Positions 26,962 to 43,393 of a stretch of 64,000 nucleotides of DNA are shown here, in pieces. The translations under genes were made by a program, and so were the position numbers. Origin of the DNA: Anaerolineae bacterium (lineage in GTDB: Bacteria; Chloroflexota; Anaerolineae; Aggregatilineales; Ch27); assembly GCA_013178165.1 (NCBI GenBank), contig JABLXG010000016.1, forward strand, positions 1-64,000, in the 5' to 3' direction. Below the pieces are notes generated by a model. That model saw nothing but the letters and a program-made list of their open reading frames with translations, searched no databases and was not told where the DNA came from. Within the stretch, counting starts at the first letter, position 1, and each line of letters starts with the position of its first letter.

Positions 26962-28701
26962 TTAACCATCGTGACTACCCTCTGCTATGGCGCGGCAAAC
27001 CCGGACGACTTCGTCACGGTAGCGCTCCAGGGTGTCATCCACGATGCCCAGGGCGCGAATATGGCCGAAGGTCGGTTCGCGCATCGGGGCAAAGGTGAAG
27101 CCGCGCTCGTGAACGCCGGTGCTGACCGGGCCGGGCGCTCCTTCGGCAAGGTGTCCTAGCGCCCGTGCGTAACGGGTCAGCAGCTGCGGAAAACGATACT
27201 GCCGATCGACACCGAGCCAGCTCTGGTTAACCGGCAACAGGGCCAGCAGCGCATCCCACCAGCCCTCGCCAGCAATCAGCAGGCCCGGATGCCGCTGGTG
27301 CAACTCCGCAATCAACATCCGGTAGCCGTCGTAGAGGTTGTAGCGGGGATCGTTGAACCAGCAAGCGGATGTATCCAGGAAGACGCCCGGCACATTGTAG
27401 TCGTGTACTACCGCGCTGACCTGTTCCAGCAGATGCTGGCGAAAGACCGGCTCGCCAGGGTTCAGGAAGACCTGATCTTCCTCACCAAACCGATCGGTGT
27501 CCCAGTCCGGGCAATTCACCAGCTTGATGTACGAATCAGTGCGGCTGCGGAAGGCGGAACGCTCCCAGTCCGGGTAGACCTGAATGTTGGCCCCGTGCAT
27601 CCCGAACATGGGCATGACTTTGACGCCCAGTTCACGGGCTGTTTCTATGAGCTGGCGGAAGGCTGCCTCCCCGCCCAGGTCGGGGCCGGGTCGGTAATTG
27701 GGATAGGCGTAGTAGTAGCGTCCTTCCCAGCCGGGGATATAAGCCAGGATGTGCTCGCCGGGGATGTGCCGGGTGACGAAGCGCAGGGTTTCCGCCATCC
27801 GGGCGAAGGTGTTGAAGACATACCCCGTCCAGTGCTGGCCGTGCAGGTTCAGTACCAGCCGGATATCCCGCATCCAGGCCGGGACGTCTGGCCGGGTTTC
27901 CCAGCGTTGCAGGCCATAGGCGCTTTCAAGAAACGCCAGATGTCCCTCAAAGTCGGCTTCGACTTCCGCAAAGGTGTCGCATACGCGCAGGCGCATGTCG
28001 GGCGTATCGATCCGGTCGCCCCAGCGGGCAGCGTCTTCCTCAAAGATCAGTTCGACGATGGGTCGCTGGTGATTGTATGGCGGCTGGTGAACGTATAGCC
28101 GTTTGGCACGGACTTCCGGATCGCGGATGCTGACGCAGACAAACCCCTGGTCGTCGGTTTCGCCGGCGCAGGCCCAGGGCGTCAACCATTCCGGCCATGG
28201 ATAGCGCCAGCGCAGAGGCCGCAACGGCGTGGTTCGCCAGACCTCATTGGCTTCGCTGATCTGATCAGCCCCGAAACTGGCCTGGGTGGGCTGCGGGTTA
28301 TCTGCCTCGCGAGTTTCCCTGGCCGCCGAGGTGGGCTGCCACCAGCCCGCGGCCAGCGCCTTCTCCGGCAACCCCCGCAGCAACAGCTTGACGACCTTGA
28401 GCGGCTCGGTGTGCCGGGCGGAAATCCGCCAGTTCCACGCGCCATCCTGGCGGGTAAGGTAGACTTCGACGCGGCCATGGGCGCGTTGCTGTTGCCCGCC
28501 CCAGCTCAGCCCATCACATACCAGATGCAGGGATTGCCCATCCTCAGTAAGCCTGATCTGGGCCGGGGCCAGTCCGTACAGGTTGCGGGTCGTGAAAATC
28601 TGGACGCTCCACTGGGCGCCCGGCAGGCCCGGCAGGTCGAAGTACGGATCGCGGGGATCGTAACTGAGATCGTAAACAGTCACGGCCAGTCTTCTTTCCA
28701 C
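26962..28701 (-). CDS. Putative glycoside hydrolase (DUF6259-like TIM-barrel protein)
   Basis: A 579-residue protein without a signal peptide, hence probably intracellular. The first 240 residues look like a beta-sandwich with many aromatic residues. The second half resembles the TIM barrel of alpha-galactosidase-like hydrolases: HILAYIPGWEGRYYY, GVKVMPMFGMHG, then GVFLDTSACWF with a candidate nucleophilic Asp at the end of a barrel strand, and LLIAGEGWWD with a candidate acid Glu. The family assignment is from memory of DUF6259 proteins and is not certain. It sits between the LacI gene (12 bases away) and the binding-protein gene, so it should act on the imported sugar. Confidence 0.65.
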   Translation of the reverse strand: MERRLAVTVYDLSYDPRDPYFDLPGLPGAQWSVQIFTTRNLYGLAPAQIRLTEDGQSLHLVCDGLSWGGQQQRAHGRVEVYLTRQDGAWNWRISARHTEPLKVVKLLLRGLPEKALAAGWWQPTSAARETREADNPQPTQASFGADQISEANEVWRTTPLRPLRWRYPWPEWLTPWACAGETDDQGFVCVSIRDPEVRAKRLYVHQPPYNHQRPIVELIFEEDAARWGDRIDTPDMRLRVCDTFAEVEADFEGHLAFLESAYGLQRWETRPDVPAWMRDIRLVLNLHGQHWTGYVFNTFARMAETLRFVTRHIPGEHILAYIPGWEGRYYYAYPNYRPGPDLGGEAAFRQLIETARELGVKVMPMFGMHGANIQVYPDWERSAFRSRTDSYIKLVNCPDWDTDRFGEEDQVFLNPGEPVFRQHLLEQVSAVVHDYNVPGVFLDTSACWFNDPRYNLYDGYRMLIAELHQRHPGLLIAGEGWWDALLALLPVNQSWLGVDRQYRFPQLLTRYARALGHLAEGAPGPVSTGVHERGFTFAPMREPTFGHIRALGIVDDTLERYRDEVVRVCRAIAEGSHDG

Positions 28702-29925: not shown

Positions 29926-29974
29926 CAAAAACAAACGGCATCGCCTGCTGGCGATGCCGTCGGCGATGCCGTTT
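29926..29974 (-). terminator. Rho-independent terminator of the GntR-led operon
   Basis: Read on the minus strand, a stem of 11 bp with a 4-base loop (arms at 29935-29945 and 29950-29960) is followed by GTTTGTTTTTG. An extra copy of one arm (29962-29974) allows an alternative 13-bp stem. It lies 42 bases after the DUF362 stop codon. Confidence 0.85.
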
Positions 29975-30015
29975 TCAGTTGCGCCCGGCCTGACTTCCCC
30001 TGGCGGGCCTGCCAC

Positions 30016-31182
30016 CTACTTCGGCGCGGCTGGGATGTAGGTCACCCGCTTGAAGTCCGGCTCCCTGACCGGCATAACGTCGACCAGCGTGTACTCGCGA
30101 CTACCCAGACCCATGGCCTCGGCCATCGCCACCTGGGCGTATACGTCTTTGTATGGGCCGTGGATGTGCTGGAAGGGGTGGCCTTCCCGGGTGACGATCT
30201 CCATCATGCCCGGCAGGTTCTCCTCGATGATCGGCGTCTTGGCCAGCATATCCAGCGTGGCTTGCTCCAGCGCCACCAGATCGTCGGAGCCAAAGACGCC
30301 AGCGTCCGGCAACACCGGCAGGCCGGTGAATCCGAAGCAGTCGCATACCGGGGTCATCTGGGTCGCCAGGTTGATGAATACCGCCTGGCCTGGCTCGAAG
30401 GTATCCAGCACCAGCTTGGCCGCAATTACGCAGACTTCCAGGAAGGCCAGGAAGTTGCTGCGCTTGATCTCAAAGGCGCCCTTGGCGACGGCCTGGCAGC
30501 GCATGCACTGATTACACTGGTTGTAGTGCAGGTGCAACGCTCCGGGGTCTTGCTTGTCGTCCACAATTGCGCCATAGGGACAGGACTCTTTGATGGCGAT
30601 GCGGGTCGCCTCGTCCGGGCAAAGCTCCTTGTGGAAGTATGCGTCAAAATGGCAGGTGTCGTGCATCGCGCTGCGCGTCTTGCCGGCGAAGCAGCCCAGG
30701 GCTAAGTTTTTGAGGGCCGCACCCCAGCCTGAATCCGGGTGACCCTTGACATGCGCCAGGTCGATCAGGAAGTCGGCCTCCTTGATCGCGCCGCCCAGGA
30801 GGAATTCAGTCACGTTGCGGTAATGGTAGGGGATCCGCTCGACCCACTTCTCATCGAGGCCGGTGCTGGGATACAACGGACAACCCAGCGTTTCCGCCGT
30901 ATAGCCGCGGGTGTGTGCGTCCGCGACCGCGTGGGGCAGATCGGTGACAAACGGCTTACCGCCGCCATCCAGCACTGCCTGCACCACCCGCCGCACAAAG
31001 ACCGGATGCACCATAGAGTAACCGACATTGCCTCCCAGGTGCATCTTGATCGCCACGCGCTTGCCGCGCACCCGCTCGCGTAGCTTGAGTTGCTCCAGGA
31101 TGAGGTCCAGTTTGGCCGGTAGGGTTTCCGCGCTGTCCAGTTGTACCTGCCGGGGCGATCCCCAGTAAACGATGTTAGCCAT
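30016..31182 (-). CDS. DUF362-family iron-sulfur protein
   Basis: A 388-residue protein. The N-terminal two thirds match the DUF362 pattern: VAIKMHLGGNVGYSMVHP, then LIDLAHVKGHPDSGWGAALKNLALGC. A short ferredoxin-like insert carries cysteines in CPYGAI and CNQCMRCQAV (about residues 195-230), enough for one or two clusters. DUF362 proteins have no settled biochemical role. It is the last gene of the GntR-led sugar operon, 135 bases after the ceramidase-like gene. No signal peptide is seen. Confidence 0.85.
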   Translation of the reverse strand: MANIVYWGSPRQVQLDSAETLPAKLDLILEQLKLRERVRGKRVAIKMHLGGNVGYSMVHPVFVRRVVQAVLDGGGKPFVTDLPHAVADAHTRGYTAETLGCPLYPSTGLDEKWVERIPYHYRNVTEFLLGGAIKEADFLIDLAHVKGHPDSGWGAALKNLALGCFAGKTRSAMHDTCHFDAYFHKELCPDEATRIAIKESCPYGAIVDDKQDPGALHLHYNQCNQCMRCQAVAKGAFEIKRSNFLAFLEVCVIAAKLVLDTFEPGQAVFINLATQMTPVCDCFGFTGLPVLPDAGVFGSDDLVALEQATLDMLAKTPIIEENLPGMMEIVTREGHPFQHIHGPYKDVYAQVAMAEAMGLGSREYTLVDVMPVREPDFKRVTYIPAAPK

Positions 31183-31317
31183 GTAATCCCCCTTTTCCAG
31201 AAGCGTTATTGCTCAGAGTATCCCATGCCTGCTCCGATTCGGACAGGGGAATCTGTCAGGAATCTTTTGCGCCAGATCGCCTGACCGGATGTCGACTGGT
31301 TGGCTCTCAGCCAGGGG

Positions 31318-32616
31318 TCAGGCGCGTACCAGTGCCAGAGCTGACCTGACCAGCCGCTCGGCAATATCCGGCTGGAAGGGCGCGCCGCCGTAGACCGCTG
31401 CCGCCAGCCTGGCTGCATACCCTCCCCGCGCAAATTCACGGGCCGGAGGGATGTAGCCGACGATGCCATTAGCGTAGCAGGCCAGCAGGGTGTGCTCGAA
31501 CGGTGCCTCAGCGCGGATGGTCATGCCCTCAGCTGTGTAGACCTCGGCGGGGACAGCAAGCAGGACTCCCTGCTCGCCCAGGCAGAACGCCTGCAATTCC
31601 GCCTGGCTGTGGGCGGGCAGGTCGTTGGCGAGCAGGCGGCGTTCCAGGCTGCGGTAGTAACCCAGCCAGAAGCGCGGCATTTTCACCTCACCGGTGACTT
31701 CCTCAAACCGTTCCGGTTGCCTGCCAAGCTGCCGGGCTTCCGCCTGGAAATGGGCGATCTGCGCACGCACTTCTTCCAGTGAAGGCACCGCATAGGCCAT
31801 TTTCAGCGCACCCTGCCGCACCGCAATCCGGGGCGGCTCGACGGGAGTGGCCTTGCTGGCGGCGATCCACGCTGCTTCAGTCAGGCCCGCCCCGGCGGCA
31901 TCGACATCGTCGAACGTACCCTGGCCCCACACCTCCCGGTTGGTGACCGGATCGATGTCGCCGCAGGCGCCGTTGACGAACAGGACGACCGCGCCAGGAT
32001 AGCGCTGCGCCAGGTGCTGCCGGAGTGCGCCGGGATAATCCGCCGAAATGATCGGTTTTGGCCCCAGGATGACCGGGTGACAGGCATAATGCACCAGCAG
32101 CGCCAGTGGTTCCCCTGCGGCGCTTTCCACCCGCAGGACTTCCACCGTCGGGTCCACGACGCCGTCTCCGGTACGGTTCCAGGCCAGCGCCTCGTGGCGC
32201 CCCCGGCCAAAGCTCAGATGGGCGGGTTGCAGCTTGAGCGTTGCCGCCACAACCGCCCCGGCCAGATGCCGGGCGGCCATCCGCACGTAGCTGCGATCCG
32301 GCGATCCCCAGCTCTGGAACTGCTGGGTGGTGGGGGCAGTGTGGCTATGAATACAGGCGACCATCACCTGCGCCGGGGGAATACCTGTGCGCCTGTGGAC
32401 AAGCTGCCGCACCTGCCGGACAAATGCCTCTGACAGGGCGATCAGGTCGCAGGTTACGATGGCCACCCGCGTCTGGCCGTCATCCATGACCAATGCCTGG
32501 CCCATCAGGTGGTCGTGAATGTCGGTCGAGTAGCGCTGCAGGTTCGGCCCGTAACCCGCCAGTTCCACCCCGATCGGTGGCGTGATGCACACTTCTGCTG
32601 CGCCAGCTTTGAACAT
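31318..32616 (-). CDS. Neutral ceramidase N-terminal-domain-like hydrolase
   Basis: A 432-residue protein from ATG 32616, which has GGAGGGG just upstream. Motifs of the neutral/alkaline ceramidase zinc hydrolase domain are present: IHSHTAP with His90 and His92, HYACHPVILGP and NGACGDIDP. It has no signal peptide, unlike true secreted ceramidases, and lacks their C-terminal domain. The operon context (sugar kinase, transporter, DegT aminotransferase) suggests hydrolysis of an amide or ester on a sugar rather than of ceramide. A second, divergent paralogue lies at 39103-40380. Confidence 0.8.
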   Translation of the reverse strand: MFKAGAAEVCITPPIGVELAGYGPNLQRYSTDIHDHLMGQALVMDDGQTRVAIVTCDLIALSEAFVRQVRQLVHRRTGIPPAQVMVACIHSHTAPTTQQFQSWGSPDRSYVRMAARHLAGAVVAATLKLQPAHLSFGRGRHEALAWNRTGDGVVDPTVEVLRVESAAGEPLALLVHYACHPVILGPKPIISADYPGALRQHLAQRYPGAVVLFVNGACGDIDPVTNREVWGQGTFDDVDAAGAGLTEAAWIAASKATPVEPPRIAVRQGALKMAYAVPSLEEVRAQIAHFQAEARQLGRQPERFEEVTGEVKMPRFWLGYYRSLERRLLANDLPAHSQAELQAFCLGEQGVLLAVPAEVYTAEGMTIRAEAPFEHTLLACYANGIVGYIPPAREFARGGYAARLAAAVYGGAPFQPDIAERLVRSALALVRA

Positions 32617-32677
32617 GGTTCCCCTCCACATATGCGCTAACTGGGCGTTTCCGCCTGCTGGACGCTGGCCCGGCGCT

Positions 32678-33943
32678 TTACAACCCCAGATCCGCCGCTG
32701 CCTGGCGGAAGATGGCGATCAGGTGGTCGCAGGCTTCGTCGGTCAGGGCTGGCGGTACGCTCAGCAGGCTGGTGCGGCTGAACAGGTCGTCGGCCTGCTT
32801 CAGCGTGCCCCGTCCGTAGGTGTACCCGGCGGCAAAAGCGTTGGCAGGATCGGACCACGGCCGTCCGGCAGAATTGACGCCGCGCTTCTGGGTCAGGCTG
32901 ACGTTGTTGTAGTAGAGGTGCAGTCCCCACTCTGTCATGGGGATGTTGTTGATGCCCAGCGGGCCGGTGACCACGCCAGCGGCGCGAGTCGCCGCGACCA
33001 TCCGCTGGCAGGTTTCTGCATCAGGCCAGATCAGCAACACGAACGGCCCGCTGTCGCCTGCCGGGTCAAGTACGCGGCGGGGCCGCAGGCCAGCAATGCC
33101 GGCAAGGCCAGCATACAGTCGATGGTTCAACCGGCGCATGGCTGCTGTGATTGTGTCCAGCTTGCGCTCCTGGGCCACCAGCATCGCCGCACTCAGTTCA
33201 TTCATGCGGCTACCCTGACCCCACAGCTGGTATTCCGGCTGGTCGGTAACCAGTCGGCCCTGCGCGTTGCGCGGGTAGCCCAGATCATGGAATGCCACCG
33301 CCCGATCATAGAGGATTGGATCATCGCACACGATCATCCCGCCTTCTCCGGCGGTCATGTTTTTGTTGAGCTGGAAGCTGAAGATCGCCATGTCGCCAAA
33401 ACTGCCCAGTGGTCGCCCGCGGAAGGACGCGCCATTGGCCTGGGCAGTATCTTCCAGGACAAGCAGGTTATGGGCATGGGCGATCTCGACCACCCGATCG
33501 ATATGGCCGGTCGTGCCGCTCATGTTGATCGCCATCACGACTTTAGAGTGCGGGGTGATCTTGCGCTCCAGGTCGTCAGGGTCCATGAAAAAGGTGTCAT
33601 CGATATCGACCAGACGAGGGATAGCCCCGGCGCGTACCACCGCAGAGATGCACGATACCCACAGATAGCCCGGCAGGAGTACCTCGTCGCCGGGGCCGAC
33701 ATCCATAGCGCTCAGGGCAATCGACAGGGCTGCCGTGCCACTGTTGACCGCCAGGGCGTGGGCGCGTCCCAGCCGCTTGCGGTAGGCATCTTCAAGCTGG
33801 TCGACGTAATGCTGCAGGTCAGGCCCATAGAAGCGGAAAGGGCTGCGGGCCAGCAGCACTCTGGTGACCGCCTCGATTTCCTCTTCGCCAATGTAGTAGC
33901 TGCCGGGCCATTCGTAAGGAAGGAGGGGTGACTTTTCGGACAT
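32678..33943 (-). CDS. DegT/DnrJ/EryC1/StrS-family PLP aminotransferase
   Basis: Sugar aminotransferases of this family transfer an amino group to a keto-sugar, often for cyclitol or aminosugar pathways. The 421 residues show NSGTAAL (67-73) for phosphate binding, EDTAQA (164-169) and the PLP lysine Lys194 in QLNKNMTAGEGG. The N-terminal motif WPGSYYIGEEEIEAV is typical. Here it is encoded with a CUT1 importer and a sugar kinase rather than in a biosynthetic cluster, so a catabolic role on an amino-cyclitol or amino-sugar is possible. Confidence 0.9.
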   Translation of the reverse strand: MSEKSPLLPYEWPGSYYIGEEEIEAVTRVLLARSPFRFYGPDLQHYVDQLEDAYRKRLGRAHALAVNSGTAALSIALSAMDVGPGDEVLLPGYLWVSCISAVVRAGAIPRLVDIDDTFFMDPDDLERKITPHSKVVMAINMSGTTGHIDRVVEIAHAHNLLVLEDTAQANGASFRGRPLGSFGDMAIFSFQLNKNMTAGEGGMIVCDDPILYDRAVAFHDLGYPRNAQGRLVTDQPEYQLWGQGSRMNELSAAMLVAQERKLDTITAAMRRLNHRLYAGLAGIAGLRPRRVLDPAGDSGPFVLLIWPDAETCQRMVAATRAAGVVTGPLGINNIPMTEWGLHLYYNNVSLTQKRGVNSAGRPWSDPANAFAAGYTYGRGTLKQADDLFSRTSLLSVPPALTDEACDHLIAIFRQAAADLGL

Positions 33944-33971
33944 CGCTAGGGAACCTCTGATGGTAGGCCGG

Positions 33972-34880
33972 TTAACCTTTTAGACCGGAGAGCACAAAAC
34001 CCTCGATGAAATAGCGCTGGAAGAAGATGAACAGGACCAGGATCGGCAGGGTAGCCAGGGTGGAAACGGCCATAGCGACGGCCCACTGGGGCTGTGCGGA
34101 ATGGGGCTGGGTGAAAACCGTGATGCCCACGGGCACCGTGGTGATCGCCTCACTCTTGATCACGATCAGGGGCCAGAGAAAGTTGTTCCAGCTGAAGAGG
34201 AAGATGATCACCGCCAGGCTGGCCGACGCCGATGACAGCAGGGGGAAGACAATTTGCCAGAAGATCCGCACCTCGCTGGCCCCGTCCATGCGGGCTGCAT
34301 CCAGTAATTCGTTCGGGATGGCGTAGGCAAACTGGCGCATCATGAAGACGCCAAAGGCGTTCATGATTCCGGGGATGATCAGGCCGGCATAGGTGTCGTC
34401 CCAGCCCATGGAGTGAATCTGAATGAACAGCGGAACCAGCAGGATCTGGAAGGGCACCATGATCGTGCTGAGTACGAACAGGAAGCACAACCGCTTGCCC
34501 GGAAAATCAAACTTGGCGAACCCGTACCCTGCCAGTGCTGAGAAGATCACCGTCACGACGACGTCGATGCCTGCCATCAGGAAGCTGTTGAAGAAGTAGC
34601 GGGCGAGGGGAATCTCGGCGAAGGCTCGCTGGAAGTTGGTCAGCCCCTGGAAGTCCTGCGGGACCCAGTGCACCGGCGAGGCGAGCACCTCCTGATCCGC
34701 CTTGAAGCTGCTGCTGACCATGAAGTACAGCGGCAGCGCGAATACCGCGGCCACGAAGATCGCCAATAACACCAGCAGGATACGCTGCGGGTGCCGCCGG
34801 AGATCATCCCACCAGTGCGCGAGCCGCAGGGAAAGCGTTGGTTGGGACGAAAGCGTTGCGACGGGGGTCAGTCTGGTCAT
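33972..34880 (-). CDS. CUT1 sugar ABC transporter permease, MalG type
   Basis: A 302-residue membrane subunit from ATG 34880, with AGGAG upstream; the TTG at 34901 is rejected because it lies inside the previous gene. It has six hydrophobic segments, and the EAA loop reads DAARMDGASEVRIFWQIVFP. It lies 13 bases after the MalF-type gene and 28 bases before the DegT-family gene. Confidence 0.9.
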   Translation of the reverse strand: MTRLTPVATLSSQPTLSLRLAHWWDDLRRHPQRILLVLLAIFVAAVFALPLYFMVSSSFKADQEVLASPVHWVPQDFQGLTNFQRAFAEIPLARYFFNSFLMAGIDVVVTVIFSALAGYGFAKFDFPGKRLCFLFVLSTIMVPFQILLVPLFIQIHSMGWDDTYAGLIIPGIMNAFGVFMMRQFAYAIPNELLDAARMDGASEVRIFWQIVFPLLSSASASLAVIIFLFSWNNFLWPLIVIKSEAITTVPVGITVFTQPHSAQPQWAVAMAVSTLATLPILVLFIFFQRYFIEGFVLSGLKG

Positions 34881-34893
34881 AATCCTTGTGCTC

Positions 34894-35808
34894 CTACTCA
34901 AGTGAGTACTGCTCGCCCCGGCTCAAACCCAGCTGGAGGACGGTTACCAGCAGGATCATAGCGAAGAGCACTACCGAGACCGCTGCAGCGTCGCCCATGC
35001 GGTAGAACTGGAACCCGTATTTCCAGATCAGCAAGCCCATCGTGGTATTGACGTCAATCGGTCCACCGCGCCCTGGCGATATGGCCCATTGCAGGGTAAA
35101 TGCCTGAAAAGCGTTGATCGAGGATATCGCTGCCACAAATACAGCCGTCGGACGCAACAGTGGTAGCTCCACGTGCAGGAATGACTGAACCCGGTTTGCC
35201 CCGTCGACCAGCGCTGCGTCACGTAGCTCGCTTGGGATTCCCGTCAGTCCGGCCAGCCAGATCAGCATATAGAAAGGGATAGTTGTCCAGTCGTTGATGA
35301 TAATCATCGAGATGGGCGACAGGTCAGGTCTGCTCAGCCAGTTGACTTCCCCCAGCCCGGTGAAGGGCCGGGTCAACTGCGTCAACAGCCCGTTGGGTTG
35401 CATCAGGATTCGCCACACGATCGCCACAACGATCAGGGACGGCAGCACTGGCGTGAAGAACAACGTTTTGGTGAATTCGCGACCCGGAAAGCGCTGGTAG
35501 AACAACAGCGCGGCCAGCAACGATAGCACCCAGACCGGGACCGTGGTGCCAACCACATACCCCATGGTGACGCTCAACGACTTTAGAAACAGCCGGTCCT
35601 TCAGCAGGTCCTGGTAATTCTGCAGCCCGACCCAGACCGGCGGGCGCAGCAGGGTGAAATCGGTCAGGCTGAACAGCAGACCGCTGACGATGGGGTATAG
35701 GAAAAAGATGATGAAGAAGATCACCGTGGGCAGTACGAAGATCAACCCCCAGACCTGCCGCCGCTGGACGGAAGAACCTCTACCCAGGCTACGTAACGCT
35801 GAGAACAA
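34894..35808 (-). CDS. CUT1 sugar ABC transporter permease, MalF type (TTG start)
   Basis: A 304-residue membrane subunit. The frame runs up to 35889, but the upstream part crosses the intercistronic hairpin. TTG 35808 is chosen because GGGAGAG lies 6 bases before it. The first membrane segment is VWGLIFVLPTVIFFIIFFLY. The EAA loop reads RDAALVDGANRVQSFLHVEL. Confidence 0.85.
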   Translation of the reverse strand: MFSALRSLGRGSSVQRRQVWGLIFVLPTVIFFIIFFLYPIVSGLLFSLTDFTLLRPPVWVGLQNYQDLLKDRLFLKSLSVTMGYVVGTTVPVWVLSLLAALLFYQRFPGREFTKTLFFTPVLPSLIVVAIVWRILMQPNGLLTQLTRPFTGLGEVNWLSRPDLSPISMIIINDWTTIPFYMLIWLAGLTGIPSELRDAALVDGANRVQSFLHVELPLLRPTAVFVAAISSINAFQAFTLQWAISPGRGGPIDVNTTMGLLIWKYGFQFYRMGDAAAVSVVLFAMILLVTVLQLGLSRGEQYSLE

Positions 35809-35854
35809 GGTACTCTCTCCCTGAATAATGCCGAGCGTTGTGTCCGGAACAAGG

Positions 35855-35882
35855 CCGGGGGTGGGCGGTAGCCCACCCCCGG
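35855..35882 (-). other. Intercistronic hairpin between binding protein and permease
   Basis: A perfect 12-bp GC-rich inverted repeat (35855-35866 with 35871-35882) with the loop GGTA lies 15 bases after the binding-protein stop. No T-run follows. It occupies the same place as the hairpins of the other CUT1 operons. Confidence 0.65.
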
Positions 35883-35897
35883 CAAACACGGCATCGA

Positions 35898-37190
35898 TTA
35901 TCGACCGGCAGCGCGGGCCAGAATGTCGTTGACTTCCTGCTCCATTTCGGGCAGTACGACATCCATGCTTTCGCCGCCGACAATGATCCGGTCACGCCCA
36001 CGCATCAGCGCATCCGTGACTTCGAAGAAGGCCGGGATGCGCGGATGGTACTTGCTGACGCCCATGTCCGCCAGGAAGGTGGGCATGATCTCGTTTTGCT
36101 GGAAGTACTCGGATTCCACAAAGTCCTTCTTGGACTGGAACAGGCCGGCGACATCGAAGTACCGCTGCGGCTCTGAAGTCAGGAAGCCGGCCAGCTTCCA
36201 GGCAGCAGTCTGCACTTCCGGCGCGGCGTTCGCGTTCACCATGAAGAAGTAGGCGTAGTTGGCCATGGCATTGTTGCTGACGGCATTGGCCCAGCGCGGT
36301 TGTGGATGGAGCGTGTAGTTGATGCCAGCCTCCTCCACCTGTGGCACACCCCAGTTGCCCATGTCGCAGTCCATCGCCAGGTTGCCAGCCAGGAACGCGT
36401 TGCGTGTGAACTCATATTGCGGGCCGCCCAGCTTCCAGGTGTTGACCCAGTCATTCCAGTAGCTCATCACCTGCCGGACTTCCGGCGTGTCGATGTGCGC
36501 TACAAGATTGACCTCGTCGATCATGTCGCTGCCGAGCTGTTGAACCATCGGGTTGAAGATCAGCAGCATGAAGATCGAGTTGCTCCAGATGAAGTCGAAG
36601 CCGCGCTGAACCAGGGCGCCGCTCTCGTCACGGATGGTCAGCTTCTCGGCGACTTCTCTCATCTCTTCCCAGGTCTTGGGGAAGTCGGCCACCGGGTCAA
36701 GCCCGGCTGCCTCAAAGAGATCGTTGTTCGCGTAGCAGCCGTAAGCGCTCAGTTCGGTGGGCAGCCCATACAGCACGCCATCGAACACTGCGCCGGCCAG
36801 CAGGGACTCACCGAAAGCGTAGGCGTCAAAGATGGCCTGCTGATCGGCGTAGCCCGCGGCGACCGGATCAACCGGCGCCAGGATGCCCTGGTTGTAGAAA
36901 TCACCGATGGCAAAGGTCGCCTGGTTGAACAGGTCCGGGCCACCGCCGCCCGCCAGCGCGGTCGCCAGGGCGGTATCCCATTCCTGGTCAGGGATGGTGG
37001 TGTATTCCACGTTGATATCGGGATTTTCCGCTTCAAACTGGGCGATCAGTTCTTCATCCAGCGGAACCCGCGGCGGATGGACATGCATCCACAGCTTGAC
37101 GGTGACGGGGCCTCCCTGGCCATAGACGGTTGGCACCATCGCTGCGATCAGAAGAAGGGCGACTGCAGCAAGAACCAATCGACGGAACAT
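35898..37190 (-). CDS. Extracellular sugar-binding protein, CUT1 family
   Basis: A 430-residue binding protein with a Sec signal peptide of about 24 residues (core LVLAAVALLLIAAMVPTV). The mature start TVKLWMHVHPPRVP is the usual first strand and loop. It is encoded after the BadF/BcrA-type kinase gene and before the two permeases. The ligand is unknown; the kinase and DegT neighbours point to an aminosugar or cyclitol. Confidence 0.9.
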   Translation of the reverse strand: MFRRLVLAAVALLLIAAMVPTVYGQGGPVTVKLWMHVHPPRVPLDEELIAQFEAENPDINVEYTTIPDQEWDTALATALAGGGGPDLFNQATFAIGDFYNQGILAPVDPVAAGYADQQAIFDAYAFGESLLAGAVFDGVLYGLPTELSAYGCYANNDLFEAAGLDPVADFPKTWEEMREVAEKLTIRDESGALVQRGFDFIWSNSIFMLLIFNPMVQQLGSDMIDEVNLVAHIDTPEVRQVMSYWNDWVNTWKLGGPQYEFTRNAFLAGNLAMDCDMGNWGVPQVEEAGINYTLHPQPRWANAVSNNAMANYAYFFMVNANAAPEVQTAAWKLAGFLTSEPQRYFDVAGLFQSKKDFVESEYFQQNEIMPTFLADMGVSKYHPRIPAFFEVTDALMRGRDRIIVGGESMDVVLPEMEQEVNDILARAAGR

Positions 37191-37280
37191 AAGGCACTCC
37201 TCCTTTAGCTAACGGACTTCTGCGGTATACGTGGACAGAGCATCTGTGCAGTTGCTTGAAGGGTTCCCGGCACCTCCAAT

Positions 37281-38276
37281 CTACTCCGTATCGCTCTTTG
37301 AACGCGCAGCAGCGGGCAGGCTGGCCCGGATCGCCTCAATGGTTGTCCCGCTGATGCTGACACCGGCCTGCTGAAGCGCCAGCAGCAACGCTCCGACCAC
37401 TGGCGCGAAAGCCGCCTGCCGGACGCTGGAACACGGTGACGCATCACGCAGGGACGCCGCAAAGGGTTCCAGAAGCAACGGGCCAGCCTGGAAGACCCCG
37501 CCGGTCGGGTAGACCGCCATCCCACTCTCAAGCATCTCCAACCGGGCCAGCACCGCCAGGGCTGCGCGGGCAAGGGCCTGCCCGGCTTCAGCCAGCAGCA
37601 TCCTGGCGACGCCATCACCATCGGCAGCCGCCTGTGACACAACCCTGGCCAGGGCGGCGATCTGCGGACGGCTGACGGCGCCGCTGTAGATCAACGTGTG
37701 GAGTGCGTGCAGGTCGCCAGCGCCAAAGTACCCCGGAACAGCGTCCATCAGCATGGTGGGCGCGCCCCGCCCATCGGCGGCCTGGGTAGCAGCCCGCAGG
37801 GCCTGGATTCCGAGGTCGTAGGCGCTGCCTTCGTCGCCCATCAGGTACCCCCAGCCGCCGCTTCTAGCCCGCCGGCCGTCTGCAGTTTGCCCGTAAGCGA
37901 CTGCGCCGGTTCCGGCGATCACGACAACACCGGGCCGGGCGAGGCTGGCGCCGGCCAGTGCAGTGACCGTATCGTCGTCGGCACGGAGTCGGTCGCAGAC
38001 AAGGAATTCCCGCACGATTCCGGGAACGACTTCAGCACCGCCGGTCATCCCGAACCAGGCGCTGCTGACCCGATCGGCCGCCAGCCCGGCCTGCTGGAAG
38101 GCTCCGCTGATCGCTTCCTGCAGGGCGCGAGTCATGCGGGCCATGCCCCCCGGCTCGTGGACATGGTTGGCCGGGCCGCCCAGTCCGGCGCCCAGAACTC
38201 GCCCATCGAGCGTGGCAATGAGCGCCAGCGTTCGGGATTGGCCGCCATCGACAGCGAGCACCAGTTCGTCCGCCAT
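37281..38276 (-). CDS. BadF/BadG/BcrA-type sugar kinase (N-acetylglucosamine kinase-like)
   Basis: An ASKHA-fold ATP-dependent kinase of 331 residues. The phosphate-1 loop AVDGGQSRT (residues 8-16), the phosphate-2 loop IAGTGAVAYG (120-129) and the GGWGYLMGDEGSAYDLG segment (140-156) match eukaryotic-type N-acetylglucosamine kinases of the BadF/BcrA superfamily. It probably phosphorylates the imported sugar. It lies 3 bases after the GntR gene and 90 bases before the binding-protein gene. The exact substrate cannot be read. Confidence 0.88.
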   Translation of the reverse strand: MADELVLAVDGGQSRTLALIATLDGRVLGAGLGGPANHVHEPGGMARMTRALQEAISGAFQQAGLAADRVSSAWFGMTGGAEVVPGIVREFLVCDRLRADDDTVTALAGASLARPGVVVIAGTGAVAYGQTADGRRARSGGWGYLMGDEGSAYDLGIQALRAATQAADGRGAPTMLMDAVPGYFGAGDLHALHTLIYSGAVSRPQIAALARVVSQAAADGDGVARMLLAEAGQALARAALAVLARLEMLESGMAVYPTGGVFQAGPLLLEPFAASLRDASPCSSVRQAAFAPVVGALLLALQQAGVSISGTTIEAIRASLPAAARSKSDTE

Positions 38277-38279
38277 GGA

Positions 38280-39026
38280 TTATTCTCTCTTCAGATGCAC
38301 GTAGTAATCGTAGCGCTCCCCGCAATACCGTGAATAACCGCACTCAAAAGGCTTGCCCTCTTGATCGTAGGCGATGGTTTTGACCAGCAGGGCGGGGCTG
38401 TTGGGTGCAACGTTCAGCAACCGGCTTTCTTCTTCGCCGATCAGGGTGGCGCTGACGCGCTGGGTGGCGGTGGTCGGAATCACGCCATAGCGAGATTGCA
38501 GCAGCGCGTACAGAGAAGTCTCCGGAGTCCAGTCCAGTTGCAGCAGATCAGGGAAGCGGGCATGCACAGTCAGGGAGGTTTCCAGGCCGATCGGTACATC
38601 TCCTACAAAGCGCAGACGCTTGAGCAGGTTAACCGGGGCGTTCCGTCGCACCTGCAAAGCTCTGGCGGTTTCGCGATCAGCGGGCATGATTTGGGCATCA
38701 AGGACCTGGGAACGGCCTATAAGACCACGCTGGCGCAGAATATCGGTGAATCCGTACAGGGCACCGGTGACCCGCGTGACACGCGGATCGGAGACGAATA
38801 TCCCGCGGCCATGCGCGATCTCCACGACTCCCCGCGCCTGCAGGAGTCGCAAAGCTTCGCGGACGGTACTGCGGCCCACTTCCATCTGTTCCACCAGCCT
38901 GTCTACCGGCGGCAATCGTTGACCGGGCTGGTAGTGTTCGGCCCGGATTAATTCCAGCAGATCAGCCACGACCTGATCGGTCAGGCTGTTATGGCGTCGT
39001 GAGCCAGCCATTGCGGATTTGCCCAT
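38280..39026 (-). CDS. GntR-family regulator with UTRA domain (HutC subfamily)
   Basis: A 248-residue regulator. The N-terminal winged helix (about residues 15-80, with PPVDRLVEQMEVGRSTVREA) is followed by a UTRA ligand-binding domain ending in the typical CGYSRYCGERYDYYVHL. UTRA domains usually sense a phosphorylated sugar or small metabolite, here plausibly the product of the adjacent kinase. It is the first gene of an eight-gene minus operon. A palindrome at 39040-39054 is its likely site. Confidence 0.92.
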   Translation of the reverse strand: MGKSAMAGSRRHNSLTDQVVADLLELIRAEHYQPGQRLPPVDRLVEQMEVGRSTVREALRLLQARGVVEIAHGRGIFVSDPRVTRVTGALYGFTDILRQRGLIGRSQVLDAQIMPADRETARALQVRRNAPVNLLKRLRFVGDVPIGLETSLTVHARFPDLLQLDWTPETSLYALLQSRYGVIPTTATQRVSATLIGEEESRLLNVAPNSPALLVKTIAYDQEGKPFECGYSRYCGERYDYYVHLKRE

Positions 39027-39039
39027 ATGGATTCATGTC

Positions 39040-39054
39040 ATCAGGTGATCTGAT
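39040..39054. promoter_or_regulatory. Probable GntR operator
   Basis: The inverted repeat ATCAG-GTGAT-CTGAT lies 13 bases upstream of the gntR start and just downstream of the -10 box, so a bound dimer would block transcription. It also lies 48 bases from the divergent gene at 39103 and could control both directions. Confidence 0.6.
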
Positions 39055-39058
39055 CTAT

Positions 39059-39088
39059 ACTATAAGGAGTATCCTGAGGGCCTGTCAA
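39059..39088 (-). promoter_or_regulatory. Promoter of the GntR-led operon
   Basis: On the minus strand a perfect TTGACA (39083-39088) is followed after 18 bases by TATAGT (39059-39064). Transcription would start within the GntR palindrome. Confidence 0.7.
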
Positions 39089-39102
39089 GCAAAGGCGCGA
39101 AT

Positions 39103-40380
39103 ATGCTATCGGTCGGTGCAGCGCGTGTGCCTCTCCCGATGCCTATAGGCCTGCCGCTGGCCGGGTATCTGAACCGGGTCGGGGGAGCTACCGCCATCCA
39201 TGATCCGCTGTATGCACGGGCTTTGGTGGCCAGTGATGGGCTGGAGATGGTCTGTCTGCTCAGCGTCGATATCCTGTGCGTTGATGCCGAGTTCGTGGCC
39301 GGCGTCAGGGACAGGATTGCCGCCGCCAGCGCGATTCGTTCGGAAACTGTTATGGTCGCCGCCACACACACGCATTCGGCTCCGGCGGGTATCGCCCGCT
39401 TCGATCTGGATCGCGCTTCGGCTCTTTACCTGGGCACGCCGAATCCTGCCCTGCGGAGCCAGGCGCAGGCGGCGCTGGTACAGGCCGCTGTGCTGGCGCT
39501 GGCTCACCTGGCGCCCGTCCGCCTGTACAGCGGCAGCGGACACGCTGAGGATGTCGCCCGCAACCGGATTGCGGCCAATGGACCTTACGATCCGGAAATC
39601 CCTTTTGTCGTGGCTGTCAACCGGGATGATGAGGTTGTTGCAGCGGTTTTCAGCCTGGCTATCCATTCAACAGTTCTGGGGCCGGGAAATCTGGCTTACT
39701 CCGGTGATCTGATCGGGGAAGTCTGTCACATTCTGGAAAAGCGCTGGGGTGGCAGCGTGGTGGTTGGGCTGGCTGGTGCTGCGGGGGATATCAGCACGCG
39801 CTTCACCCGTCGGGAGGCGACATTTGCGGAGGTACAGCGGCTGGCTATCAGCGTGGCCGATGCCATTGCCGCTGAACGAAAGAGCCTGGAAATTGGCTAT
39901 CCGGTCAGGGCAGGGCGAGAGCTGGTGCGCCTGTCGTTACAACCCGCCGAAAGTCGGGATGCCCTGCAACAGCGGCTGACCAGTGCTGAAAGGAGGCTGG
40001 CCGATCTGGCAACATCGCCTCCTGCAGAGAGGCGTCCGGTTGAGGCGGAGATCGAAGGCTTACAGGTGGCGCTGGCGGCCGACCGGCAAGGGCCGGATCA
40101 TGTGTGGACTGAAGTGCAGGTGCTCAAGCTGGGCCGGGTGTTGACGGTTGGCTATCCGGGGGAGATGTTCGTGGAGTTTGGACAGGCGACGCGCCAGGCG
40201 CTGGCCCCATACCATGTACTGGTCGCCGGTTATGCGAATGACTACATCGGCTATGTCCCAACGCCGCAGGCCCACCGTGGATATGAGTCCACTGTCGCCC
40301 TTGTTGCTGCTGATAGCGGGGAGAAGCTGGTCGAACTGGCGTGTCGACTGGCAGGCGGCGAGGTTGCCGCCAGGACATGA
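39103..40380 (+). CDS. Neutral ceramidase N-terminal-domain-like hydrolase, second copy
   Basis: A 425-residue protein divergent from the GntR gene. It shares the zinc-hydrolase pattern of the copy at 31318-32616: ATHTHSAPAG with His89 and His91, AIHSTVLGPGNLAYSGD and LAGAAGDIS. The segment after residue 260 differs and contains a possible coiled coil (RLTSAERRLADL). No signal peptide is evident. A shared regulator with the minus operon is likely because the two promoters lie within about 60 bases of each other. Confidence 0.8.
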   Translation: MLSVGAARVPLPMPIGLPLAGYLNRVGGATAIHDPLYARALVASDGLEMVCLLSVDILCVDAEFVAGVRDRIAAASAIRSETVMVAATHTHSAPAGIARFDLDRASALYLGTPNPALRSQAQAALVQAAVLALAHLAPVRLYSGSGHAEDVARNRIAANGPYDPEIPFVVAVNRDDEVVAAVFSLAIHSTVLGPGNLAYSGDLIGEVCHILEKRWGGSVVVGLAGAAGDISTRFTRREATFAEVQRLAISVADAIAAERKSLEIGYPVRAGRELVRLSLQPAESRDALQQRLTSAERRLADLATSPPAERRPVEAEIEGLQVALAADRQGPDHVWTEVQVLKLGRVLTVGYPGEMFVEFGQATRQALAPYHVLVAGYANDYIGYVPTPQAHRGYESTVALVAADSGEKLVELACRLAGGEVAART

Positions 40381-40518: not shown

Positions 40519-41541
40519 TTACAGATCGACGGGCAGGCCGGTTTCTGTTGACTGGATGATCGCGCGCAGAACGCGTGTCACCAGCAGGCCATCTTCGCCT
40601 GTCGCCAGCACCGGGCGGTCATGGACAACGGCGTCCACAAACTGGCCGATTGCTTCCAGGACGAATCCCCCGATGCGCAGCGGGCTGGTGGGGATGACGC
40701 CCAGCACGTCAGGAAGCGAGCTGGTGGTGGCGGTGTACTTCTCCGTAGCCCGGTGGTCAGAGGTATTGGCGTAAATCGATCCCGCACTTCCAAGTAATTC
40801 GAACTTGAAATTGAAGACCATCGGCTCTGTCTCTGGCAAGATCCAGGCGTTCTCCAGGGTAGCCACAGCGCCACCCTTGAACTCAACAATGGCAATGTGG
40901 AAGTCCTGGGTATCTATGCCTTTTGCTTTCAGGATACCCGATCGGGTGACCGCATAGACACGCTTTGGCTCATCTTCCAGCAGCCAGTGCACGAGATCCA
41001 TCACATGGCTGCCCAGGAACCACAGCGCCGAAGTCCGGCTGCCCCAGCTCAGCATCTGCGTGGCCACATATGTGGTGTTACTCAAGCGAGCGTAGACATA
41101 CACCGGGCGGCCAACATCGCCAGCCTGAATAGCCTGTTTGGCATTGGTGAAGGCCGGGTTACAGCGGTTGTGAAAATCAACCATCAACTTAACGCCAGCG
41201 TCTTTGACGGCGGCCAGGATGGCCTCAGCATCTTCAACGGTGGTGGCCAGGGGTTTTTCGACCAGGATATGCTTGCCGGCCCGGGCGGCGGCGACGGCAA
41301 TGTCCCGATGCGCAAAGTCTGGCGTGGCGATCGAGACTGCCTTGATCTCCGGATTAGCCAGCAGTTCGTGGTAATCAGTCGTGTAGGCGCTGGCGCCATA
41401 CTTCCGGGCGACTTCTGCAGCTCTCTGCTCGTTAAGATCACAGACTGCGACCAGCCTGGCGTCTGGTAGACGACTGTAGGTCATGGCGTGAAGCTCGCCA
41501 AAGATGCCCACCCCGATGACACCGAAACCGACCTGATTCAT
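40519..41541 (-). CDS. Gfo/Idh/MocA-family NAD(P)-dependent oxidoreductase
   Basis: A 340-residue sugar or inositol dehydrogenase-like enzyme. It has a Rossmann fold at the N-terminus (GVIGVGIFGELHAM) and the conserved EKPLATT motif, about residue 95, whose lysine is part of the active site. The C-terminal sheet domain includes the usual Asp-x-x-x-His-type helix (GSHVMDLVHWLL). It is the last gene of the fourth CUT1 operon. The substrate is unknown. Confidence 0.9.
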   Translation of the reverse strand: MNQVGFGVIGVGIFGELHAMTYSRLPDARLVAVCDLNEQRAAEVARKYGASAYTTDYHELLANPEIKAVSIATPDFAHRDIAVAAARAGKHILVEKPLATTVEDAEAILAAVKDAGVKLMVDFHNRCNPAFTNAKQAIQAGDVGRPVYVYARLSNTTYVATQMLSWGSRTSALWFLGSHVMDLVHWLLEDEPKRVYAVTRSGILKAKGIDTQDFHIAIVEFKGGAVATLENAWILPETEPMVFNFKFELLGSAGSIYANTSDHRATEKYTATTSSLPDVLGVIPTSPLRIGGFVLEAIGQFVDAVVHDRPVLATGEDGLLVTRVLRAIIQSTETGLPVDL

Positions 41542-41565
41542 AGAGACAATCCTTTCTTGGGCTGC

Positions 41566-42393
41566 TCAGCCCTTGACAGCGCCGAAAGTAAGACCACGCA
41601 CAATGTAGCGACCAAGAAGCAGAAAGATGATCATCGGCGGAATCATCGTGACAATCGCTGTTGCGGCGATGTAGTTCCAGGTGACGCCGGTTGTGGCAAA
41701 GTAACTGAGTGTCCCCAGCGGCAAGGTAGCGGTGCGCTGGTTACTCAGCACCAGCGGGAAGACCGTATTGTTCCAGCTAAAAACGAAGGCAAACATGGAA
41801 GTGACGATGATACCTGGCAACGCCAGGGGCAGGGTGATACGCAGCAGGGCCTGCAGGCGGTTGGCGCCGTCAACCAGAGCGGCTTCTTCCAGTTCGTCGG
41901 GGACTTCATCAAAGAAGCTCTTGAGCAACCAGATCGAGAACGGAATAGTAATGGTTTGCAGCACGATAATCATGCTGGCATGGGTACCTACCCAGCCCAG
42001 ACGGGCCATCACCACGAAGTAGGGGATCAGAAAGACAATGGGTGGGGCCATCAACAGGCTGATATACCAGAGCATCAGGAAACGCTTGGCCCGTAACTGG
42101 AAGCGCGATAGCGCATACGCCGCCGATACTGAAAAGGGCAGGCTCAGCAGGGTTGCCCCGCTGCTGACAATGACGCTATTAAGTAGTTGGTTCCGGTTAT
42201 TGCCTGGCTCAAGAAATGTATACTCAAATGCCTTCAAAGTTGGCGTGAAGATGAACTGCGGCGGCACGGTAAAGGCGGTTTCCGGGGGGCGCAACGCCAG
42301 GGCAAGGAACCACAGAATGGGGCCAATGAAAAAGAGCAGGACCGGAAGCAGCGCCAGATAAACGAGCAGTTTTTGCTGTATTGAAGTGCGCAT
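41566..42393 (-). CDS. CUT1 sugar ABC transporter permease, MalG type
   Basis: A 275-residue membrane subunit with six hydrophobic segments (first LLVYLALLPVLLFFIGPILW) and the EAA loop EEAALVDGANRLQALLRITL. It abuts the MalF-type gene directly (42393/42394) and is followed after 24 bases by the Gfo/Idh gene. Confidence 0.9.
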   Translation of the reverse strand: MRTSIQQKLLVYLALLPVLLFFIGPILWFLALALRPPETAFTVPPQFIFTPTLKAFEYTFLEPGNNRNQLLNSVIVSSGATLLSLPFSVSAAYALSRFQLRAKRFLMLWYISLLMAPPIVFLIPYFVVMARLGWVGTHASMIIVLQTITIPFSIWLLKSFFDEVPDELEEAALVDGANRLQALLRITLPLALPGIIVTSMFAFVFSWNNTVFPLVLSNQRTATLPLGTLSYFATTGVTWNYIAATAIVTMIPPMIIFLLLGRYIVRGLTFGAVKG

Positions 42394-43281
42394 CTACCAC
42401 TCCCAGTCTTTGAAGGCAATGAGGATGTACACGTTGATGATGATGGTCACGATCACCACAATTAACCAGGTCATGGCCGCAGCCAGGCCAATGTTGTAGT
42501 TGACCAGCCCTTCATAGTACAGGTTGTAGCTCAGCGTTCTGGAGGCAGTGCCGGGACCGCCGCGAGTCAGCACAAAAACCAGGTCAAACATGTTAAAGAG
42601 CTGCATGAAGCGAATCATGATGATGATCACGGCGGTGGGCTTGATGAGCGGCAGGATTATTCGCCAGAACATCTGAACTCTGCTGGCCCCGTCTACGCGT
42701 GCTGCGTCAACGATCTCCTCCGGGACAGACAGCAAACCGGCATACAGCACAATGGCGAAGAATGGCGTCCACTCCCAGATGTCAGCGACAGCGATGCTGG
42801 CCAGGGCAGTCTGCGAACTACCCAGCAGCCCGCGCTCCGGTACAGCGAAGCCCAGGCTGGTCAACAGCCAGGAGAACAGGCCGCTGCCTTCATAGAACAT
42901 GTAGCGGAATAGAAAGCCTACCACAATCGGGGCGACAGTCGTGGGCATGATCAAAATGGTGCGGGCGATGGTCATGCCCCGCAACTGGCTGTTGAGCAAC
43001 AGCGCGATCCCCATACCAAACCAGAACTCAATGAAGGTCCCGCCGATGGATAGAATGAGGGTATTCCTGAGCGAATCTATGAAGGGCGTGATCTGGAACA
43101 CCATCTGGTAATTGCTCAGGCCGATGAATTGCACGGGGGATGGGCTGGTCTGCAGGTTCCAGAAGTAGAAGCTGTTGACCAGGGCAAAACCCATAGGGTA
43201 GATGATCAGAGAAAACAGCACAATCACAGACGGGGCCAGCATCAGGTAGGGCAACGGCTGGCGGGGTAAACGCTTGCGCAC
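42394..43281 (-). CDS. CUT1 sugar ABC transporter permease, MalF type
   Basis: A 295-residue membrane subunit (first segment YLMLAPSVIVLFSLIIYPMG). The EAA loop reads VDAARVDGASRVQMFWRIIL. It is separated from the binding-protein gene by 112 bases with a perfect hairpin (43344-43373). Confidence 0.9.
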   Translation of the reverse strand: MRKRLPRQPLPYLMLAPSVIVLFSLIIYPMGFALVNSFYFWNLQTSPSPVQFIGLSNYQMVFQITPFIDSLRNTLILSIGGTFIEFWFGMGIALLLNSQLRGMTIARTILIMPTTVAPIVVGFLFRYMFYEGSGLFSWLLTSLGFAVPERGLLGSSQTALASIAVADIWEWTPFFAIVLYAGLLSVPEEIVDAARVDGASRVQMFWRIILPLIKPTAVIIIMIRFMQLFNMFDLVFVLTRGGPGTASRTLSYNLYYEGLVNYNIGLAAAMTWLIVVIVTIIINVYILIAFKDWEW

Positions 43282-43343
43282 GCCATCGCTTCCTTTCGGT
43301 TGGCACGCGGCGGGTGAGATAGAATGGCAGGGACGGCCACTGT

Positions 43344-43373
43344 GCGGGGAGGCGTGGCAGAACGCCTCCCCGC
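43344..43373 (-). other. Intercistronic hairpin between binding protein and permease
   Basis: A perfect 12-bp inverted repeat (43344-43355 with 43362-43373) with a 6-base loop lies 20 bases after the binding-protein stop. It has no T-run. It is the fourth occurrence of this arrangement in the window. Confidence 0.65.
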
Positions 43374-43393
43374 TGATGGTTGTACAGCCAGGA

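Follow-up and report, generated by a model that had tools for sequence, protein, structure and literature searches.

A conserved importer-led operon with ceramidase-fold zinc hydrolases and a DegT aminotransferase in Anaerolineae, a possible variant route for N-acylated hexosamines

The DNA considered here is a stretch of 64,000 nucleotides from an Anaerolineae bacterium of the Chloroflexota (GCA_013178165.1, contig JABLXG010000016.1, positions 1 to 64,000; hereafter the window), which belongs to contig 16 of a 4.19 Mb genome that is 98.6% complete (G000). Its minus strand carries, in this order, the genes of a GntR regulator, a BadF kinase, a solute-binding protein and two permeases of an ATP-binding cassette (ABC) importer, a DegT aminotransferase, a ceramidase-like hydrolase (cerA) and a DUF362 protein; another ceramidase-like gene (cerB) starts next to the GntR gene and runs in the opposite direction (Table 1). 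The intergenic gaps within the unit are small, the widest (about 135 bp) separating cerA from the DUF362 gene, and no ATPase gene was found inside the operon among the open reading frames (ORFs) and Pfam matches of the window. A first-pass annotation of this DNA had named these genes, the divergent second ceramidase-like gene included, and all of them are present as ORFs with Pfam matches; its picture of a regulated uptake and breakdown unit of the aminosugar type, equipped with cytoplasmic ceramidase-like hydrolases, is supported. A sugar importer, an amino-sugar-type kinase and a UTRA-type regulator occur together here, and the unit is a real, conserved and regulated gene set.

Table 1. Genes and sites of the operon and of its divergent neighbour, in window positions
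Feature	Position	Strand	Evidence
GntR/UTRA regulator, first operon gene	38280..39026	-	UTRA 120.5 bits, GntR 76.6 bits (Pfam); kept in L107, L108
BadF-type sugar kinase (NagK/MurK-like)	37281..38276	-	PF01869 117.9 bits
Solute-binding protein, CUT1-type sugar ABC importer	35898..37190	-	SBP_bac_1 130.2 bits; PDB relatives are sugar-binding proteins
ABC permease 1	34894..35868	-	BPD_transp_1 36.6 bits; UgpA-like 101.7 bits
ABC permease 2	33972..34874	-	BPD_transp_1 62.3 bits; UgpE-like 155.1 bits
DegT/DnrJ/EryC1/StrS aminotransferase	32678..33943	-	PF01041 245.7 bits; pyridoxal 5'-phosphate (PLP) lysine in KNMTAGEGG
cerA, ceramidase-fold zinc hydrolase, predicted cytoplasmic	31318..32613	-	PF04734 (Ceramidase_alk) 40.8 bits, cut-off 32.1
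DUF362 iron-sulfur protein, last gene ahead of terminator	30016..31182	-	PF04015 112.6 bits, cut-off 24
cerB, divergent ceramidase-like hydrolase	39103..40380	+	PF04734 60.1 bits
Promoter-like site TTGACA-18-TATAGT	39059..39088	-	11/12 consensus matches; both hexamers conserved in L108
Terminator-like hairpin with T tail, operon end	29934..29961	-	12 pairs; consensus match only
Shared divergent regulatory region, GntR-cerB	39027..39102		38-bp stretch identical in L108

When 84,980 species genomes were scanned with an alignment of three cerA relatives, 80 loci were returned, two of which hold the operon. At L107, the series GntR-BadF-binding protein-permease-permease-DegT-cerA and the divergent cerB are kept at 91-98% identity (92% for cerA) within a near-identical neighbourhood that also retains the DUF362 gene and, past it, a LacI cluster. 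In the window, this cluster includes a 579-residue protein (26962-28701), possibly a glycoside hydrolase as a guess, with the LacI regulator on one side and a CUT1 binding protein on the other. At L108 (Aggregatilineales isolate D137), the same series and the divergent cerB are kept at 64-91% identity, DegT being 91% identical to its window counterpart, and the genes outside the unit differ from those of the window. Other genomes thus retain the set as a unit, the check that the first-pass annotation had put forward; the annotation had also counted the hydrolases and the DUF362 gene as one set, to be doubted if homologous operons lacked them, and in the closest operon beyond the near-identical genome the hydrolases are kept but the DUF362 gene is missing. 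In the window genome, cerA and cerB are the only two ceramidase-family matches at E 1e-20. At L109 (10001-12589), two cerA-like genes (57 and 59% identity) stand in tandem, and L110 has a cer gene of 48% identity; no further operon gene was recognised at either locus, so the cer gene also travels alone. Next to cerB in the window (40519-44890) come a Gfo gene that resembles inositol dehydrogenases and a CUT1 importer belonging to it; the Gfo gene stays under every NCBIfam cut-off.

The region between GntR and cerB contains a 38-bp block that is the same in the window and at L108, although the flanking genes on both sides have diverged. This block holds the -10 element of the promoter together with two palindromes found by eye, ATACT-N6-AGTAT and ATCAG-N5-CTGAT, and would suit one operator acting in both directions; a repeat finder with a minimum length of 8 nt reported no such palindromes in the window. 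In total, promoter-like and terminator-like sites are about as many as chance would give (3 found for 2.5 expected and 6 found for 6.4 expected, respectively), so it is position and conservation that carry weight for these two elements. Since a near-consensus promoter precedes GntR and a T-tailed hairpin follows the DUF362 gene, the latter is probably co-transcribed with the operon. Sites resembling TGGTNTNNACCA, which we take to be the operator motif of the DasR/NagR type, number 24 in the window at no more than one mismatch, against 8.6 expected from shuffled sequence (palindromes being counted on both strands); at the same tolerance, none lies in the cerB-GntR intergenic region or at the operon promoter.

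The structure model of cerA (46 alignment rows; predicted local distance difference test score of 94.8) has the fold of the catalytic domain of neutral ceramidases; with structure-comparison rows of Z below 8 treated as noise, it matches the Pseudomonas aeruginosa enzyme (2zws) at Z 41.7 over 388 residues (root-mean-square deviation 3.3) and the human enzyme (4wgk) at Z 39.2. The alignment stops at residue 485-487 of a chain of more than 600 residues, and cerA is devoid of the ceramidase C-terminal domain. Columns 89, 91, 179, 357 and 387 of the zinc site, whose assignment as zinc ligands we assume from the ceramidases, are kept in 108-109 of 110 aligned relatives. The resemblance to neutral ceramidase thus covers the catalytic-domain fold and the zinc-site residues, whereas the cer proteins are only about 430 residues long, share about 20-22% identity with it and show no secretion signal: none was seen by eye at the N-termini of cerA or cerB (no predictor was run), as had been claimed from the outset. 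Neutral ceramidase also has a Ser, presumably the nucleophile, at a position where cerA has Asp, as do 22 other rows of the alignment; Ser occupies this column in 13 of the 110 rows, including cerB and two cerB orthologues. The NCBIfam cut-off for neutral ceramidase (1200 bits) is not reached by either protein, cerB scoring 41.2 bits and cerA giving no match. On the simplest reading of the model, cerA would be an amidase using zinc-activated water, and it is best read, from sequence, as a predicted intracellular amino-sugar N-deacylase.

Evidence as to the class of substrate comes from the relatives of the operon. L108, alone of the two closest operons, carries a 254-codon NanE gene between the kinase and the binding protein (NF002231, 282.8 bits against a cut-off of 189; PF04131, 198 bits); NanE is the N-acylmannosamine-6-phosphate 2-epimerase. 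Contig 3 of the window genome (L236, 2037-13303) holds a paralogous operon in the order GntR-binding protein-permease-permease-NanE-BadF-SIS, after which come genes for an oligopeptide ABC transporter and for a BshB1-like deacetylase of the PIG-L type, and the whole has the look of another uptake unit for amino sugars or muropeptides; contig 8 (L251, 4940-10123) holds a binding protein-permease-permease-NagA-SIS cluster, and the genome encodes four NF002805 SIS proteins and three NagA proteins. The kinase of the window operon shares 42% identity with that of contig 3 and, its L107 and L108 orthologues aside, 25-31% with the other BadF kinases of the set; its best solved relative is the N-acetylmuramic acid/N-acetylglucosamine kinase 8zo3 (E 1.6e-41). 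The first-pass annotation had left the class of substrate unassigned between aminosugar and cyclitol; the NanE of L108, the NagK/MurK-type kinase and the paralogous NanE-BadF-SIS operon now point to N-acylhexosamines, and the window operon is best seen, on these comparisons, as a diverged variant of the N-acylhexosamine catabolic operons of its lineage. At the residue before its catalytic Asp, the kinase has Asp in the window clade, where most other kinases have Ser; the available text of PMC10465942 describes T94 of Tannerella forsythia MurK as governing the space near the lactyl ether, most homologues having instead an Asn that binds the C4 hydroxyl. The Asp at this C4-contacting position hints, weakly, that the C3/C4 region is altered, and would fit a changed C4 substituent.

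A wider view is provided by 99 loci around cerA relatives, 80 from the scan and 19 from Chloroflexota genomes, whose proteins were clustered; L038 and L041 were removed as copies of L116 and L130, and L055 and L171, apparently one contig (33,988 bases, identical gene order), were both kept. The first ORF caller picked antisense ORFs in GC-rich loci, and counts use a composition-scored caller; the latter fails on the AT-rich L112, where tblastn puts a DegT gene beside the cer gene, a locus missed in the counts. With near meaning within four same-strand genes of a cer gene (background 364 of 1,074 genes), all 21 NF002805-type (NagS-like) SIS proteins are near, as are 14 of 17 BadF kinases, 12 of 16 DegT proteins and all seven proteins resembling N-acetylglucosamine (GlcNAc) 2-epimerase (AGE-like); no enrichment is seen for Gfo oxidoreductases (5/19) or permeases (10/35). 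Fisher P values for these neighbours ignore kinship, many of the loci coming from related Clostridia and Bacteroidota. Loci with a near DegT gene (7/99) and loci with a near SIS gene (19/99) do not overlap and a Bacillota contig outside this set reads DegT-cer-ROK, which suggests that DegT may take the place of SIS in such operons.

The gene orders themselves are recurrent. In Bacillota, the usual one is BadF-SIS-cer followed by M20 or ROK (13 loci, read by eye); three Chloroflexota loci (L043, L044, L048) read SSF symporter-epimerase-NagB-SIS-NagA-cer, an Acidobacteriota locus (L143) reads MurR/RpiR-cer-SSF-BadF-SIS, and L140 pairs a cer gene with a GlcNAc 2-epimerase-like gene. Near one Bacillota BadF-SIS-cer cluster, a nickel-pincer isomerase of group 22 (L148:3404-4660; NF052515, 495.8 bits) stands beside GH20 and M20 genes. 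At L113, L130 and L116, two or three DegT genes are found beside the cer gene, together with TIM-barrel or ABC genes, and this hints at substrates with multiple amino groups. DegT relatives of 35-41% identity in Chloroflexota lie mostly in contexts free of cer genes, one of 20 stretches (L098) having a cer fragment beside DegT; DegT relatives were rejected as a definition of the unit for this reason. An open-access literature search returned no paper tying ceramidase homologues to such operons.

The DegT protein has an invariant K194 among three aligned relatives, which is the PLP lysine; DegT-fold aminotransferases carry this Lys, and the sugar dehydratases of the fold have His instead. Its best solved relative is the amino-sugar transaminase KdnA (5k8b, E 7.3e-52), and it shares with KdnA and the other DegT amino-sugar transaminases the fold family and the PLP lysine; KdnA-type enzymes are biosynthetic, whereas the window DegT stands in an importer-led, apparently catabolic setting. 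In comparison with NanE-NanK-NagA-NagB catabolism, the unit has the importer, the kinase, the GntR regulator and, at L108, the 2-epimerase, and it resembles the NanE operon of its own genome in kinase family and gene order; unlike that pathway, the window operon has a ceramidase-fold hydrolase and DegT and is without NagA, NagB and the epimerase. Of 15 genomes checked for classical NagB (TIGR00502), 10 score over the cut-off, three (G000 with 51.2 bits, G400, G402) score under it and two (G401, G413) give no match; the window genome and its two nearest relatives belong to the five with a score under the cut-off or no match. The SIS partners of cer genes elsewhere, like that of the paralogous operon, belong to the UPF0309/NagS family (9eol; 2e-35 and 1.4e-28). 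NagS dehydrates GlcNAc 6-phosphate (GlcNAc-6P) and N-acetylmannosamine 6-phosphate to an enamide that is deacetylated by NagA, and homologues from Clostridium, Paenibacillus and Acidothermus display negligible or no dehydration of GlcNAc-6P, according to the available text of PMC12680351. NagS thus works with an amidase, and its family is the cer partner elsewhere, whereas the window operon is without a SIS gene; by analogy, a dedicated amidase beside distant NagS homologues would fit a different, related substrate.

We propose that the unit, as a variant of the GntR-ABC-NanE-BadF-SIS operons of this lineage, serves the inducible catabolism of an N-acylated hexosamine or of a compound closely derived from one, and give this proposal about an even chance of being right. 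Gene content and order, regulatory conservation, fold, zinc-site residues and the statistical tie to amino-sugar genes are observations; from these we infer a substrate, a set of reactions with their order and a regulatory logic. The CUT1 importer would take the sugar in and the BadF kinase would phosphorylate it, probably at C6; NanE would epimerise it at C2 in the sister genome (L108). Inside the cell, cerA would then remove the amide-linked acyl group, and DegT would strip the freed amine by transamination, the step that falls to a NagS-like SIS protein or to NagB in sister operons. The target of cerB may be another acyl group or a variant of the substrate, and GntR would repress both divergent units until its UTRA domain binds a sugar phosphate. 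Behind this mechanism stands a recurrent combination, in which an amidase is joined by an enzyme that either removes the amine or carries out an elimination: NagA/NagB, NagA/SIS, cer/SIS and cer/DegT. The pairing of enzymes is unusual and apparently undescribed, and does not amount to a new kind of system. A wider generalisation is more doubtful: small cytoplasmic ceramidase-fold zinc hydrolases might constitute a new class of amino-sugar N-deacylases acting on kinase products and paired with a NagS-like SIS eliminase or with DegT, giving a deacylate-then-transaminate route where NagA/NagB do not serve, for example on diamino or decorated N-acylhexosamines.

Several observations weigh against an N-acylhexosamine operon of this kind. 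The absence of the ceramidase nucleophile from cerA leaves its predicted catalysis unproven, and NanE, present in one of the two closest operons, is found in neither the window operon nor that of L107, nor are NagA and NagB. Within the 99 loci, many cer relatives, those of Bacteroidota and others, are found in a different neighbourhood (DUF4861, M28 peptidase), so the amino-sugar link holds for a subset only; in one Bacillota class, a strong cer match occurs in only 2 of 291 genomes, the query's own included, which makes the cluster a rarity in that class. The DegT enzymes that have been characterised mostly act in biosynthesis. Each of the 15 genomes checked has a classical NagA above cut-off, so the cer enzymes are not needed for GlcNAc-6P, and at L043 a NagA-like gene shares the operon with the cer gene; cerA as a plain replacement for NagA was rejected on both counts. 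The window genome has, elsewhere, a NagB-II-like protein (235.9 bits against a cut-off of 430) and may therefore not need DegT for deamination, which weakens the idea that cerA and DegT rescue a genome lacking NagB.

Other explanations have to be set against the same evidence. That the kinase has an N-acetylmuramic acid/GlcNAc kinase as its best solved relative would equally suit salvage of muramic acid or muropeptides, in which a MurK kinase and, in relatives, a MurQ-like SIS etherase would operate with a cer enzyme cutting the amide between lactyl ether and peptide, and not the N-acetyl group. The M20 peptidases of the Clostridia clusters and the oligopeptide transporter and BshB1-like deacetylase after the paralogous operon point the same way, as does the Ser before the catalytic Asp in most kinases of the Clostridia clusters and the paralogous operon, at the position of T94 in T. 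forsythia MurK (PMC10465942, available text). The window clade, however, has Asp at that position, the window operon is without a SIS gene and the NanE of L108 fits mannosamine over muramic acid, which makes muramic salvage unlikely for this unit. Breakdown of an aminocyclitol is less probable still: DegT would be an amino-cyclitol transaminase followed by dehydrogenase and dehydratase reactions of the inositol type, with the hydrolases taking off acyl or carbamoyl groups. Inosose aminotransferases do belong to the DegT family, xylose-isomerase-like TIM-barrel genes occur at the DegT-cer loci L113 and L116 and the Gfo gene adjoins cerB; but this Gfo gene is part of its own ABC cluster, a different gene lies beyond cerB at L108, Gfo genes are not enriched by cer genes (5 near, 14 far), and NanE and the NagK-type kinase argue for a hexosamine.

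The least credible account, to which we give very little weight, is that cerA and cerB act on lipids or sphingolipids as genuine ceramidases and are neighbours of a sugar operon by chance. The Pfam name, the fold match and the conserved zinc site speak for it, but no secretion signal is seen, cerA has neither the catalytic Ser nor the C-terminal domain, and the two genes have been kept together with the operon, whose regulatory block they share. A functional role for DUF362 within the unit, as a LarA-clan epimerase or a redox partner acting on an intermediate, appears about as improbable as the aminocyclitol route. Its gene is on the same strand, between cerA and the terminator; DUF362 shares Pfam clan CL0471 with the nickel-pincer racemases (DUF2088) in the available text of PMC11770544, and a nickel-pincer isomerase (NF052515) lies near the Clostridia cer cluster of L148. 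Against this role, the gene is absent from L108, and its close homologues (56-59%) occur in four genomes of the same class, none of them among the 67 genomes with a cer match; no amino-sugar gene was recognised around these four, the gene caller having missed the DUF362 gene itself in one. The inclusion of DUF362 in the functional set by the first-pass annotation does not hold up, and the gene is treated here as a recent addition and loose passenger of the operon.

The DUF362 protein has a four-Cys cluster (Cys 201, 223, 226 and 229) that is nearly invariant in homologues, and a comparison with solved structures gave no match up to E 1. Two further papers (PMC7955657, PMC5742341) bear, in their available text, on DUF362 alone. 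The DUF362 homologues at L212, L215 and L226 each contain one in-frame stop and are possibly pseudogenes or assembly errors.

For the ceramidase family, an N-acylhexosamine operon of this kind would mean that bacterial proteins of the neutral-ceramidase family, which recur in settings without an evident sphingolipid link, can in part be re-assigned by their neighbourhoods: a subset would belong to amino-sugar catabolism, with its likely partners named. The partnership of cer genes with SIS proteins offers in addition a testable lead on the role of the distant NagS homologues, a role left open in the available text of PMC12680351.

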